From: Opisthocomus hoazin
Lineage: Eukaryota > Chordata > Aves > Opisthocomiformes > Opisthocomidae
Reading direction: 5' to 3'
NCBI RefSeq assembly: GCF_030867145.1
Contig: NC_134439.1
Location: forward strand, 5,183,379 to 5,247,378
Length of the DNA stretch: 64,000 nt
The position numbers and the translations under genes were made by a program. Shown here piece after piece: positions 1 through 10,414 of the stretch. Position 1 is the stretch's first letter. The number at the start of each line of letters is the position of its first letter. The notes beneath the pieces are model-generated. The model was given only the letters and a program-made list of their open reading frames with translations. It was not told the DNA's origin and searched no databases.

Positions 1-398
1 TCTTTAGACACTGCCTTTAAAAAATACCAAACCCTTTGTGGGTAGTTGTCGTGTTTTATTTCCCCCCCCCCTCGCAGAATCTCTTGCCAGTTTGCCTGTC
101 TTCAGGCGAGCCAGTAATTTGGCGAAGTTTGTGTGGAAGCCAGTTGGGTTTTGCCTTGCTCTCTAGGGTCGTTATTATGTGGGTGGTTTCTGTGGAGAGG
201 GCAGTTCGCGGCAGTCCTTGGAAATAAGGCTCTGGAAATTGGTTAAAAAAAAAGGAGGGGGGGGGGGGAACAAAAAAAAAAAAGACGGGGGGGGGAGATA
301 ATAAGGACGAAGCCAACCCAGAGCTCAGCGCTCTCACTGTATTTTTTTTTCCACCCCCCCCCTCCCGAAACTCCCAAATGAAGCTGACGCTGCGATGC

Positions 399-404
399 AA
401 TAAA
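399..404 (+). terminator. Possible polyadenylation signal of upstream HOXB7
   Basis: An AATAAA hexamer is followed within 30 bases by a GT-rich stretch (CGGTGTGTCTAATTGCTTG), the usual shape of a vertebrate cleavage site. It is the first good AATAAA in the window and would close a + strand gene lying before base 1. Gene order makes that gene HOXB7, but no HOXB7 sequence is visible, so this is positional inference. Confidence 0.3.
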
Positions 405-1669
405 CCTCGGTGTGTCTAATTGCTTGCTGCAGTGTGAGCGGGGTTTTACGGCTCTCCCGGCCGGAATACCGGCTTGGGCTTCTACCCGCGGTCTGTCGGT
501 GATTCCCCCCCCTGTCTGACACCCTGACGCTCGCCTTCGGTTTAGGAAAATATTTGTCCGGAGATGCCCGTCATTTGAAATGTGTGGGGTTTTTTTTGCA
601 AGATTTCGGGGGGGGGGGGGGCCTGTTGAAATATAGTACTAATTGCTACTGTTACGAGGTGATTTTTAAAATAAGATAATGTGTGTGTGTGAAGCGAGAT
701 GGAGTAAGAAGAGATTCATTACTTAAGCATAAACCGTTTTATGACGTGACGATTTATCTCATGAAGTGACTGTGCCTGAGTATTGCGCCGACATGAGTAA
801 ATGCTCACAAGCCGCGGAAATAATAAACAGAAAGTCATTTTTAAAAGCTATTTCTTCCCGAACCTGTTACATTTTTCATAAATCACGGGGGGAAAAAAAA
901 AAAAAAAAAAGAAATTAATGCCGGTTCAAGCCCCTGTTCTCCCTTTTCCCTACGTGTCTCCAAGCTCGGGTTTTATCTGCCGTTTGTAAGAAAAAAAATA
1001 TTTAAAAATCATATTAATTCAGCAACCTTACACCAAGAAGCTTTTATGCCGGTCTTCCACACCCTGCGTGGGCTGCCACTTGTGGAAACCCCGCAGCTCG
1101 CTGCGGACAGCTCTTTTAACCATTTCAACCCGGTGCGGTGTGGGGGTGACCGAGAAAGCTCCGCGCACCCCCGGTGTGCGTGTGGGGGGGGGGGGCTGCG
1201 CCCTGCTCCGGGCCGGGCTCCCCTGCCGGCTCCTCCATTGCTCGTTTATGGCAGAAAACGAACCAAAGCGGCGCGGACCGAGGGGAGCCCCCTCCGCCCG
1301 GTGTCCCCCGGTGCCGGGACCGCCGCGGGGCTCGCCCATTCCCCGCCGTTTGCTGCCATCTACCGTCGGCGGCCGGCGGCTCCCGGGGGGCTCCCGGAGC
1401 CGGTACCCGGCGGGGGGGCCCTGCCCGGTCTGCCCTCCCGGCTCCCCGGCCGGAACACCCCCCCCACCCCACCCCGCCCCTCCAAGCCCGGAGCTGGGGA
1501 CGGTGGACTTGCCTTTAGCTATATGTCGAGCCTTAAAGTGAGGGATCTATAGGGTGCACCCGGACGTATATGTCCCCTCATGTGAGCTGTGGGCACCCTT
1601 GCGCGCGTGCTGCTCTATACGTCCCCCCAAACCTACCCCTGACATGCGTGTACCTCTGTTCCGCGCCAC

Positions 1670-1785
1670 GTGGGCGCAAATCTATACATGGGAGCAAATC
1701 CATACGTGGGCGCAGATCTATACGTGCGCGCAAATCCGTACTTGGGCGCAAATCCATACGTGCGCGCAAATCCATACGCGCGCAC
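1670..1785. repeat. 18-bp minisatellite, about 6.4 copies
   Basis: Six units of 18 bp run head to tail (consensus GTGNGCGCAAATCCATAC) followed by a partial unit. Units differ at only a few positions. Because 18 is a multiple of three and the unit carries no stop in several frames, overlapping open frames appear on both strands, each encoding a hexapeptide repeat. No start context or homologous protein family supports coding. Confidence 0.85.
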
Positions 1786-4700
1786 CCATCCAACGGCTCC
1801 CACCCAGCTGTCTGGAGGGTGGCAGGCAGCTGGTGGGCTGCCGAGCGCCAACACGAGTGGAGATGCTGCGACACTCGGGGCGGGGGGGTGGGTTCAGGGG
1901 AGCTTGTGTGTTTCTGCCTTGCCGGGAGCGGTCACTGCGGCGGGGGCTGGAGAAGAGCCGTCGAGCCGTGTAGACGGGGCTCGGGCTGTTGCTGGGGAAG
2001 GAGCCGGGGGGTGAGGGCAGGGGACGAATCGCTTTTAAGTTACTGTAGGCTCGGAAGGGACAATGCGTGTCTGTGATTTTCAAAGGTTTCTGGCTCTCCC
2101 TCCCTCCCGCTCACTTTCTCTCTCTCGTTTTCTCCTTCTGCCACACAGTTTCCTGGCAACTGTTTGCGTCTAGACATTTTCTCGAAGAAAGTGAGATGCC
2201 CAGGACTATGTTAAGAAAAACAAAAACAAAAAAAAGGGGGGGGGGGGGGGGGGGGAAGTTTCTCTCTTTTGACCAGCAACAGCCGTGATTAACTTGTTCC
2301 ATGCTGTAATTCCCAAAACCCCCCAGCATTTGCCTGCTGCATTACATGATCCGTCTCGCCTCCTCCTCCCTTTCTCCTCCTTTCCCAATATGATTTGACC
2401 AGTAGTCTCCCCCCTTTCCCTTCCCAGGGCTGGCTTTCTCGGGAATGCTTGGTCTGGATGCATTTTGACTCCTCCAATGCCCCTCTCCCCTCCTGCCCTC
2501 CTCTCCTCCCCCCTCCCTTTTTTTTTTTGTTAATAATTAGCTGCACTCTGTAATGGAACAATGGCAGATTATTATTGCTTCTTTTCAAAGATCCCAGTAA
2601 CAAGGTTATTATGCACTGTACGGGAAGTCAGGTAAATTAAACTTAAATTGCTGGAAATTAAGTTTCAGGCGGTTCTGCGCGGGAGAGCGGGTATTTTTTT
2701 ACACCTTCAGGGATCGTTGTTTTAAATACAACCCTGGAGCTCAGCCCTGCTTTGCCGGGTTTTTTTTCGGATGCGATTTGGGGTGTGCAGGAGCATTACA
2801 GGGGAGGCTGCTCAGCTGCTAGTGGCTTTCTGTGTCTGACTCGAGGAACAAGGGGTTTTTTCAAGTGTTTTCGTGGTGTTGGCTTGACTTTATGGCTGCA
2901 ATAAGTCCCTCGGTGGGGAAACCCCGCTGTGTTCTCACTTCAGAAGGGTCGGGAATTCCAGCTCCACATGAAAAAAGAGAGTTTCATTTTTTATGGAACC
3001 AACTGCACTGAACTTTCTACCAACTTCTTCGCGGTTCAGCTTTCACACAAGCAATGCTCTGTTCTGTTTGCGTTTCGAAATATTTGGGTGTTGTTTTAAT
3101 CCCCTCATCTATCTGCCTTGCCTCTGCTCGGTGGGCTCGGGGTTTGCTGGCCAGAAAAGCAAAGCGACAAAAAGTGGGACCTTCCTGGGCAGAGAGCTGG
3201 GGTAGTACAAGCTGTAAATCCTTCTCTTTAGCTGGATTTATACCCTGCCAGTAGAGTGATGCCTGTCAGGAGCGGAAAGCCGGCTCCCAGCCCAGGGAAA
3301 TGTGTTAAACTGCCTTCTGGTCTCTCTCGCAGCTTCCCCGCTTTATCGCTCCTTCCCAACAAACCCTGATTTTTGAAGAGACGAGGCCAAAGGCTGAATA
3401 AAGCTGCGCCCACCGGTGCCCTAAAGCCGGGTTTCACTCCAGGGTGCTGCAGAAGCTGGCTTCTGCGACCGTTACTGCTCTGGGTCTGCGTCTCCCCTGG
3501 CTGGGCTGACGCTGGAGGCGTCCAAAGAAAATATATTCGCAATATCGGTCTCAGATTTACCTTCGGACTTCAGGGGGGAAGGCGGGGAGAGCGTCTGACA
3601 CACAGCTACGCTAATAAGCCAACATTTAATTTTTTTAATTTGATTTTTTTTTTTTTGTTAAGCTATTGGACTGAGAGTAGAAACCAGCGCTGGGCTAAAC
3701 ATCCAGTTCTCTGAGATTTAGTGCGGTTTCAGACCTCTGCTCCTATTTACATGTGTTATAGGTGGCAAATCAATTAGACCGCGGGCCTGACCCTCCGAAG
3801 ATGAAAACTATGACAGACATGGATTTTTTTTTTTAAGGTTGGGGAACCAAATTCTCTACCTTTCTTTTTCTCCCCAAATAACCACCTAGAGGGTCATCCT
3901 TCTTCTCAGAGGCGAGACGTACGATTTTTATCTATCGCGCGTCTAAGGTGTCAGCAATAAGCAATTAGCAAGCGGTCAGCTTCAATTAGTGCGTTTTTAT
4001 TTTCTTTTAAACGTCAGCTGTCAAATTACGTTAAAATCCTGGTTTGGCCACAAAGGTCCTGTAATGAGCAGCATTTTAATACGGTAAAATTTAGGGTGGG
4101 GGAGATTTTTTCCCAAACTATTTCGAGGGATTTATTTGCCGAGCAATCACAAGAAGTGAGAAACAATATCAGAGCAAACATTTCCAGCAGATGTACTCAC
4201 GCATCGAGTTATCAGGACATCCCTTTCTTAGCCCGAAATTCGCATGCGGAGCTGATCATGCCAGATAACTGCTGGTTTTGCAGAGCTACGAATATTGCGC
4301 AACTCTTATCAGCTGTGCGAGCTGCTCGGCTCCTGCAAGCAGTTAACTTCAGGCTCTCCTCCCAGCCTTGGGTTTTGTGGTTGTTTTTTTCTTCTCTAGC
4401 CATCGTTCCCTTTCAATCTCACTTTTTTTTTTTCCTTGCATACCAATAAAGCAGATCTACGTAAGTTTGGGTCCATTCCACACACAAAGGGAAACTCTGC
4501 AAGAACAAATATAAGAGATATCAGTCAGAGAGGGAGTGGAGGATGGAAAACTACTTCCTTTGCATGTTATTTCCTTGAATTATAAGGATTACGTTTCAGT
4601 CGAAATGTTCATTGCAGCCGTGGCATGAAACAATCTTGGCTCTGCGGCTGTAAACACGATGTTTAAAATAAATTAGCTCGTAATAAGATACTGGTTTCGT

Positions 4701-6229
4701 AGATACTTGAAGCTCCGTCAGAGAGAGCCGCGCTGGCAGCCCTACAGAAACCATGTAATGTATGTAATTCTAGATTTGTGGCACACGCATTCACAGATTC
4801 AAATACAGGGGAGTGTGTGTTGTAAGGCAAGTCATTTCACTGCGCGTAGGACCCGACAGACAGATGGCTACAAATTCGGACAGGAAACCAATTCCTTGAT
4901 AAAACGCAAGTGATCGGGAGACAGTCCTGGCTTTAATTTAAGGCTTGGGTTTGGTTGGTTTTTTTTCTTTTTCATTGCGAGATGGCTCCGATTTTCCCGT
5001 TTAAGAAAAGGGAGCGCGGCGGTCAGAGCTGCAGCCCTACCTTGAGCAGAGTGGGGTCTGCCGGGGGGGATGCTCCAGTAGGGCAGAGCCATCTCTGCCG
5101 AGGAAACCCGGCAAACCGAGAGAGGCAAAACTCAGCGCAAAGCGCGGCTTGTAGGGGGACGGGAATTGCTTGAGGCTTGCGGAATTAGCTCTTCCAGCCT
5201 CTTAACTTTGCAAAATGGGTATTTGCAGTGGGGACGGGCTCAAAGGGTAGGGGGGTGCAAAACCGTGGGGTCTCTGCGCACCTCCAAGACAGCAGCCCCA
5301 TCACCCCGCCGGCTTCCTCTCGTAAAAAAAAAAAAACAAAAAACAACAAAAAAACCCAACTCGATCGGTAACAATCAATAAACTCCGCTTTTGACCGTAA
5401 CCCAAGGCTTTCTTTTAGCCATAAAAGGTCGGGCATAGATTCGGTATTAACAAAAAAACGCAAGAGGGCACAATGCGGTACCGGACTCGGGAGGAGATCG
5501 GGATTTAGCAAGGGATAAAGGGAATACTTCGATTTTCCATTCATCTCCCGAATATGGAGCTTTTGGAGAAAGAAAAAAGAAAGGAGGTGTGATATAGCAA
5601 AAGCGAAGGGTTGGTTCAAGCGAGCGCAGCTTTTCTGAACGGGGAATGCTAATCTATGGTAATTAGACAAACGTGGACCGAAATAAGTTGTCAAACCCGA
5701 TTTCTTCTCCCGTAGCAAATCAAAGTGAATCAACCCGGCGGGATCTCCTCCTTACAAAGTTCTCACACACACCAAAAAAAAAGTTTTTCCCCCTTTTTTT
5801 TTTTGTTTCCTTTAACTGTGCGAAGTACCCAGCCATTTCAGGGCGGCTTGCAAACACTAGGGGTTAAAGTTGTCCGAATGCGAATAATTAACTTTTCCTC
5901 CCCCCCACTTACAGCGGGTATTGTATACGTTGATGTGTGTAAATACATAGAGGCGTGCGCACCGCCGTCCGTGCGAACGGGCTCTCGCCCACCCCCGCGC
6001 TGAGCTCCGGAGGGGGGGGGGGGGGAGACGGGAGGGGGACACGACACGTTTATTTATTTATGAAGCTCCGAGCGCGCCGGGAATGTTTCTTTCGGCAGAT
6101 ATTATATATTTGGTTAAGGGGGTGCGCTTCTGTTGTTTAAAAGGGAGGGAAAAGGGGGTGGATGGTTTGTTCTTGGGGTCCCTGGTGCAATCTCGGCTCC
6201 TCATGGGTGCTATTTTGCAACCTCAGGCG

Positions 6230-6413
6230 CCTGCTATTGGTCAGCCCATGATCAGATGGTTGTATTTCCTTGTGTCCCTCGCTGGCACCACGCCATCTCC
6301 CTTCAGCTAAAACCCAATCTCCGATATACTACTAATAGCTAAACCACTTGGACTATAAAACACAACAAATCATAAAGCCGGGGAAAAAAATAAAGGACGG
6401 CAGGCTCCTTCCA
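6230..6413 (+). promoter_or_regulatory. HOXB6: HOXB6 proximal promoter and 5' leader
   Basis: An inverted CCAAT box (ATTGG, 6236-6240) and a TATAAAA at 6354-6360 lie ahead of the start codon. The sequence from about 6305 to the ATG is low in repeats and resembles the conserved leader of amniote HOXB6 as I recall it. The TATAAAA is only about 55 bases from the ATG, so it may lie within the leader and not act as a core promoter element. The transcription start is not defined by sequence. Confidence 0.5.
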
Positions 6414-6819
6414 ATGAGTTCTTATTTTGTCAACTCGACCTTCCCGGTGAGTCTGGCGGCGGGGCAGGAGCCCTTCCTGGACAGATCCCCGCTTTATCCC
6501 TCGGGCTATGCGGACCCTCTGAGGCACTACCCCACCACCTACGGAGCCACGGGCGTCCAGGAGAAGGGCTACACCTCCTCTCCTTACTACAGCAAAGCAA
6601 CGGAGCCTACGGCCGCAGCTCCGCCTGTGACTATGGGGCCGGCGGGTTTTTCAGGGAGAAGGACCCTGCGTGCGGGCCCCCCCAACCTGGACGAGGTGCC
6701 CTTCGCCCCGAGCCGCGCAAGTCGGACTGCGCGCAGACCAAACTGTGTTCGGAGAGAGCGAGGAGCAAAAGTGTTCCGCCCCGGTTTACCCCTGATGCAG
6801 CGGATGAACTCTTGCAATA
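6414..6819 (+). CDS. HOXB6: HOXB6 coding exon 1 (N-terminal region; frame disturbed)
   Basis: HOXB6 is a nuclear homeobox transcription factor of the Antp class that patterns trunk axial tissue. This exon starts with [19 protein letters not shown], the signature HOX6 N-terminus, and ends with MQRMNSCN at a good donor (ATA|GTGAGT, phase 1). An in-frame ATG 66 bases upstream is rejected because the family begins at MSSYFVN. The same frame is open throughout, but conserved middle segments lie in other frames: NGAYGRSSACDYGAGGFFREKDPAC about 6599-6676, NLDEVPFAP about 6684-6710, the EPRKSDCAQ region about 6711-6754, then EEQKCSAPVYPW up to 6794. Indels are inferred near 6597, in the seven-C run 6677-6683, at 6710, at 6755-6759 and at 6794. 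They sum to a multiple of three. Read literally, the protein has GLPLMQRM in place of VYPWMQRM. Consensus error is likely, but a real variant is not excluded. Confidence 0.9.
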
Positions 6820-8379
<1,560 letters not shown>

Positions 8380-9205
8380 AAAGTATTATTTAAAACGCGC
8401 ACACACACACAAAAAAGAAAAAAAATAGAAAGGGAGTGAGTGAGTGTGTGAGAGAGCCGAGAGGATGAGGGGGGTGTAGGCTGGCTGCGAGGACAGGGAG
8501 AACCTGCACATTGGTGGGACAAGCCTTCTGCGGCAGCGGCAACACAGCTCGAAAGTTTGGGCCACCAATGCACGGACTGGCGTTCCCACTGATCTGTCGT
8601 GTCCAGAAAAAGAAAAAAAAAAAAAATCAGGCTTCTAGTTGCATTTTTTAATTTTTGTTTTCCTTCCTAGACCTCCCTCCCCTCCTATTCCACCCCCCCG
8701 AAATGAAATAATAATAATAATAATAATAAAAAAGTAAATAGATAGAGAGAGAAGGGGGAAAAGAAAGAAAGGGAAAGAGAAAAGACAAAAAAAAAAAAAG
8801 ACTCCTACCCTTGTTTCTACCCTTGGTGTCACTGTTAGTAATCTGCTAACTCTTGTATTTAATGGAAGTGCTGCAATATATGTCATTTGGGGTGTTTATT
8901 GTCTTAATTTTGTAAAAATGTTTCATGCACGTTGACATAGGGTTGGGTTTTTTTTTCATTTTTCTTTTTTTTTTTTTTTCCCTCCTTTGGTAAATTAATC
9001 AAGCCCTGAGGTCTTTGTAATTAGTTTTTTGGATTTATTTTTTAAGAGGAAAACCTACTGAAAGAACGAGTACTACCTAAATGGATGCAAAAGCAACAAC
9101 AAGAAGAAGTTCTATTTTATTAATTTTTGTAAGTGTTGTGTTTGAAATTTGTCTTAGGTATGCACATGGAATTCTCTAATAAAAACAAAGTCTTCGATCT
9201 CATGC
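8380..9205 (+). other. HOXB6: HOXB6 3' untranslated region
   Basis: About 0.8 kb between the stop codon and the first AATAAA in good context. It contains a CA run just after the stop, an (AAT)n tract at 8707-8735, and AT-rich sequence. The end is set by the polyadenylation signal at 9178. Confidence 0.65.
9178..9183 (+). terminator. HOXB6: HOXB6 polyadenylation signal
   Basis: AATAAA in AT-rich 3' UTR sequence, about 0.8 kb after the HOXB6 stop, followed by unique sequence and a C run. Confidence 0.6.
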
Positions 9206-10312
9206 ACCCCCCCCCCGTCATTATTATTGTGATTATCTTTCCCTTTTCCAGGGGTACTTGCCATTTTTAAGGAGCAGAGGGTGGCAAAGGGAGCCCTGCT
9301 GCTCTCTGTCCGACACTCGCTTCTCATCTGCGAGGACAAGCAACTCCAAGCACACGGAAGTTGCACTGGAGAGATAAATCTGGTTTTCCCTCTTTTTGTC
9401 TAATCTGAAATGGAAGACCTTTCACCAATAGTATTTCCTCGCTGACATTCTCCTTTAGTATCGCTCTTTTTTATTGTTACAGTACAAAGAGTTATGACGA
9501 AACGCTCTCCATATACATAATAAATCAAGGAAACGGGCAAAAATATGCTCTCGTTTATCTACCAAAGATACCTAACATTTGCCCAGCATCTTTCAAACAT
9601 CTGGTCCCTCACTTCACATCCCCAAATCAAAGTGAAGCGTAGTGCAAAGAAGTCCAGATTTCAAGGGAATTTGCCCCGCGAAACGAGCAGCTTCTTAGCT
9701 CGGGGAATACAGCCTCCATTTCGGGGGGGGGGGGGGGGGGGGGCAAAAAGGTGGAAAAGATCTAAACTAAGTCTAATGAGCTCTTTTAAAAGAAGATATT
9801 ATTATTTTCGCTTGAAGGCGTTTTCGAAGGCTCCGTTTCAGGGGCTCGCTTCGCTCGGGGTGGGGAACCTTTCTGCTCTGTACCAAGAGGAATCTCGTGC
9901 ATGCAAACAGCAAACTTTTCCTGGGTTTGGGAATTAAACGAAAGGAAGCGCTTTTTTTCTGCTGAGGATTTAGGACTGGAAACGAGCCGCCAGCCCAGCC
10001 TGTTTCGGCTACCGTTTTCTGCAGCTTCGCGGGGGGAAAACGCGAGGAAACAGGATCTCCTGCCTCCCGTCCCTTCCCCCCCCACCTCCCAGAAATACCT
10101 ACGTGTGAATGCTTCCCCCCACGCCACAAGCTGGTTTAACGCCAGTCACTTTTAAAATCAATTCATGCAGAAGCTTCGCAGCTGTAGGACATTTACTATT
10201 ATTGCCACGCTTTTCATTGCCCGTAATTATTATAATTATATGTCACTTTCAATATGGCGCATAATTTCCAATGAGTTGCAGACAAGCATATGAAATTCCG
10301 AAACTGCCTTGG

Positions 10313-10414
10313 AAGAAAAAAAAAAAGAGACAGAGAGAAAAGAGAAGAAGAAGAAGAAGAAGAGGAAGCAGAAGAGGAAGAAGAAGAAGAAGAAGAAAAG
10401 GAAGAAAAAGAAAG
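10313..10414. repeat. Polypurine (GAA/GAAG) tract
   Basis: About 100 bases of almost pure A and G on the + strand, dominated by GAA and GAAG units. Open frames here (Lys/Glu on +, Phe/Leu on -) are produced by the repeat. Confidence 0.85.

Follow-up and report, generated by a model that had tools for sequence, protein, structure and literature searches.

A scrambled HOXB6 first exon in the Opisthocomus hoazin assembly, almost certainly an artefact of an unmerged contig overlap

The scrambled first exon of HOXB6 in the Opisthocomus hoazin genome assembly is almost certainly an assembly artefact, in which a contig overlap of ~10.3 kb was left unmerged and the copy of it inside the window carries small base-count errors. 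There is no biological novelty in it, and the genome of the animal very probably contains a single, ordinary HOXB6, as written in an intact copy that lies upstream. The window, by which we mean the whole 64,000-nucleotide stretch analysed (C26:5183379-5247378, from a genome of 1.48 Gb in 415 sequences), had been given a first-pass annotation in which assembly consensus error was thought the most likely cause of the scrambling; that reading, made from the window without sight of the intact copy outside it, and now supported by that copy and by an indel and homopolymer error profile, holds in a more specific form, a duplicated contig overlap.

Results

Homeodomain matches on C26, together with the reading frames of the window, indicate the HoxB cluster, and within the window lie HOXB6, HOXB5, HOXB4, HOXB3 and HOXB2, names that we assign from Hox sequence features and the order of the cluster. 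The first exons of HOXB5, HOXB4, HOXB3 and HOXB2, all of which are located past the end of the overlap described below, are open in the window frames from the start codon to an in-frame hexapeptide; the earlier view that these four genes show nothing similar stands to that extent, although small compensated internal shifts are still compatible with open first exons.

The two exons of HOXB6 in the window are as follows.

Window 6414-6819, plus strand: first exon of HOXB6 in the copy with errors; 406 bases, ATG at 6414.
Window 8120-8379, plus strand: HOXB6 exon 2, with the homeodomain and the stop codon (8377-8379); 0 differences between the two copies.

Inspection of the window sequence confirmed that exon 1 is open from the N-terminal start to the splice donor (GTGAGT at 6820, directly after the exon). 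The exon is in frame with exon 2, and the spliced product of 221 residues has a normal N-terminus, a scrambled middle, the residues MQRMNSCN and an intact homeodomain. Compared with HOXB6, what is missing from the window copy as written is the YPWM hexapeptide.

A DNA search of the same genome, with HOXB6 exon 1 alone as the query, found two places only: the window itself and C26:5179250-5179669, which matches at 98% identity and lies 10.5 kb upstream, beyond the window.

C26:5179250-5179658: upstream HOXB6 exon 1, 409 bases.

This upstream copy is uninterrupted, encodes 222 residues and carries VYPWMQRMNSCN. Where it stands, across a run of 200 Ns from the window, it reads CSAPVYPWMQRMNSCN, with exon 1 open and HOX6-like throughout, and its 222-residue product contains SAPVYPWMQRMNSCN. 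It resembles HOXB6 in its HOX6 N-terminus (MSSYFVN at the start), its YPWM hexapeptide, the intron between hexapeptide and homeodomain, and the homeodomain itself; these are the features by which HOX6 proteins are recognized, and the HOXA6 that this genome encodes served as a further comparison. The homeodomain search of the genome returned HOXB6 matches in duplicate, at C26:5180994 and C26:5191521, with an equal score of 82.9 bits, so that a count of HoxB genes made from this assembly would be one too high.

Self-alignment of the region placed both copies of the gene within a longer duplicated stretch, C26:5172837-5183178 matching 5183381-5193706 (window 3-10328).

C26:5172837-5183178: first copy of the overlap, separated from the second by the 200-N run.
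Window 1-10328, plus strand: second copy of the overlap, the contig ends apparently having been left unmerged (self-alignment and global alignment).
Window 10311-10413, plus strand: GA/GAA-rich purine tract, the site of the upstream contig end; tract ends counted by eye.

The 200 Ns occupy C26:5183179-5183378, immediately ahead of base 1 of the window. The first copy ends at 5183178, the last base ahead of the Ns, while the right-hand contig begins at 5183379 and the second copy is aligned from 5183381, window bases 1 and 2 being left as an unaligned end by BLAST. The arrangement is a dovetail, in which the end of the left contig is the start of the right one to within two bases; the near-identical copies lie in tandem on one scaffold with a presumed assembly gap between them, and the overlap touches both contig ends at the contig boundaries. 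We infer that the 200 Ns stand for a scaffold gap rather than a withheld stretch, since their number is round, they are placed where a gap would be expected and the overlap ends at them. The GA/GAA-rich tract at the end of the left contig is a possible reason for the break. Nurk et al. (2022) describe HiFi coverage as failing at GA-rich sequence, and a dropout of this kind might have caused the break here, supposing that the platform was HiFi.

Aligned globally, the 10,342 bases of the first copy (5172837-5183178) and window 1-10328 share 10,246 identities and differ by 22 substitutions (~0.2%, 13 of them transitions) and 86 indel events, a ratio of indel events to substitutions of ~4:1. The window copy has bases missing in 57 of these events and extra in 29, one of the 29 being the two-base end. 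Single-base indels make up 71 of the 86, and 60 of the 71 fall in homopolymers of at least three bases, which hold 31.6% of the upstream bases (binomial p ~4e-20). The events are crowded towards the start of the right contig, with 78 of the 86 in the first 8,000 of its 10,328 overlapping bases (p 0.002, for a cut-off picked after the per-kb counts had been seen). An indel-rich, homopolymer-bound spectrum is typical of long-read error, divergence being dominated by substitutions, and, judged from the sequences themselves, the differences between the copies show the profile of sequencing error. Which copy is wrong can be assigned in exon 1, not site by site elsewhere in the overlap.

One difference of another kind was seen at window 1762 (upstream C26:5174608), where the window copy has one extra 18-base unit, GCGCGCAAATCCATACGC; this is possibly a true allelic length variant.

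Within exon 1, the window copy differs from the upstream copy by seven single-base indels and no substitution. They are listed here by window position on the plus strand, from the alignment of the copies, the placement of an indel inside a run being arbitrary.

6479, plus strand: one G fewer than upstream.
6487, plus strand: one C more than upstream.
6590, plus strand: one C fewer than upstream.
6674, plus strand: one G more than upstream, in a G run.
6706, plus strand: one C fewer than upstream (CCCC for CCCCC).
6740, plus strand: one A fewer than upstream (AAA for AAAA).
6794, plus strand: one G fewer than upstream (TGATG for TGGATG), in the Trp codon of YPWM.

Homopolymers of at least three bases hold five of the seven. 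The sum of all seven is −3 (406 against 409 bases), a multiple of three as the first-pass annotation had it, and 180 of the 406 bases of the window exon are out of frame. That annotation had proposed five cancelling indels; the cancellation is borne out, the number is not, since the pair at 6479 and 6487, ahead of the interval it described, had been missed. This pair cancels within itself and turns FLGQIP into FLDRSP. As for the five, the losses at 6710 (in the C run from 6706) and 6794 had been identified correctly. The loss first placed near 6597 belongs at 6590; the gain ascribed to the C run at 6677-6683 is an extra G in the run at 6674; and the event given as −1 or +2 is a loss, found in the A run at 6740 and not at GAGAGAGC (6755-6759).

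We place the exon-1 errors on the window side because the upstream product agrees with HOXA6. Aligned with exon 1 of HOXA6 from the same genome, the upstream product scored 317 with 71 identities, compared with 193 and 55 identities for the window product. When the comparison with HOXA6 was restricted to residues 59 to 131 or 130, the upstream product scored 78 (mean of 200 shuffles −23, maximum 18) and the window product −14 (mean −35, maximum 23). The segments FLGQIPLYP, YQQSN and PVYPWMQRMNSC are common to the upstream product and HOXA6. Judged by exon 1 alone, the two copies differ in consensus quality.

An open frame after seven indels is unremarkable, given how often random sets produce one: when seven random single-base gains or losses were put into this GC-rich exon 1, a fraction of 0.152 of 20,000 trials kept the exon both open and in phase, and when the observed signs were kept and their order and places randomized, exon 1 was open in 0.435 of 20,000 trials. 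A special cause for the cancelling frame was considered and dropped in view of the 15% found in the first simulation.

Discussion

The course of events that we consider very probable begins with two contigs of the HoxB region that overlap by ~10.3 kb and were ordered with a 200-N gap between them, unmerged, so that the overlap, including the whole of HOXB6, appears twice. The contig end that lies in the window would have rested on few reads; the cleaner copy would have drawn the reads used for polishing, and polishing of the window copy would have failed. Seven single-base errors stand in the window exon 1, summing by chance to −3 and giving an open, scrambled frame.

The best of the other explanations is that the contigs represent two haplotypes, a heterotype false duplication in which the differences, including the exon indels, are truly allelic. 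The 22 substitutions, 13 of them transitions, and the 18-base unit would fit ordinary heterozygosity and make it possible that part of these substitutions, together with the repeat unit, is allelic. However, the preponderance of indels, mostly in homopolymers, does not suit this view, and it would require one copy of a conserved exon to shift frame seven times; an allelic origin of the exon-1 indels is very unlikely, and we regard the haplotype explanation as a whole as highly improbable.

Still less probable is a true recent tandem duplication of HOXB6 with one copy decaying to a pseudogene. Such an event would leave two complete, equally oriented copies on a single scaffold, as are seen here, but the copies are parted by an N run that both of them reach, where a true duplication would have continuous joining sequence, and their differences, bound to homopolymers and consisting chiefly of indels, are unlike divergence, in which substitutions would prevail. 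Decay would also have to leave exon 2 unchanged while putting seven frame-shifting indels, and no substitution, into exon 1. HOXB6 is not known to be duplicated in any amniote. Literature searches on HOXB6 tandem duplication with genome assembly, and on HOXB6 with frameshift and assembly, yielded nothing on the present case in titles and abstract openings, for the latter search among the matches listed. A genuine tandem duplicate in which one copy has shed the PBX-binding hexapeptide through compensating indels, its frame still open and its homeodomain unchanged, deserves equally little credence.

A true compensated coding change, by which the animal would make a HOXB6 whose linker is scrambled and whose hexapeptide is missing, is the least credible of all. 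An open exon 1 that joins exon 2 in phase speaks for it; against it stand the intact exon elsewhere in this assembly and the frequency with which chance yields such a frame, as simulated above. We reject both this change and a real tandem duplication in view of the N run, the geometry of the overlap, the profile of the errors and the existence of an intact copy.

The importance of the unmerged overlap is as a caution only. Automatic annotation could list HOXB6 twice, once intact and once lacking the hexapeptide, and the doubled entry could give rise to mistaken claims that a Hox gene had been duplicated or its PBX contact lost. Because the frame is open, filters based on stop codons would miss the window copy; self-alignment across scaffold gaps detects a duplicated overlap of this kind.

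A separate observation concerns a putative HOXD3 exon 1 (C9:25849517-25849566), which looks frame-shifted at a run of ~11 G, with MQKAAYYDN...SGSCMR in one frame, PPGIGEQQPP...IFPWMKE in another, and the G run between them. From its sequence this looks like a homopolymer error; it lies away from any duplication seen, which suggests that other parts of the assembly, too, may contain isolated errors in homopolymers.

The HOXB6 case fits, as far as the assembly sequence allows, what Rhie et al. (2021) and Ko et al. (2022) call homotype false duplication. The former (PMC8081667) describe overlapping contig ends that are scaffolded into gapped tandem copies, whose length is often that of one corrected read, and a case in which a copy that went unpolished kept its frameshifts because the better copy attracted the reads; the latter (PMC9516828) name, among the marks of false duplication, a gap that separates the copies and very low depth. 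The likeness to these descriptions lies in the gapped tandem copies at contig ends and in their differing consensus quality, and the 10.3-kb overlap, set against a duplication of about read length, is plausible for a long read. The criteria given there also include a read depth below the haploid level and k-mer multiplicity, and a few of the differences seen here may be allelic. The nearest single parallel, going by the legend to Extended Data Fig. 11 of Rhie et al. (2021, PMC8081667), is TLK1 of Anna's hummingbird, a locus likewise present twice, with one copy frameshifted and the other of higher quality; the TLK1 pair consists of a primary and an alternate sequence, whereas both HOXB6 copies stand on one scaffold.
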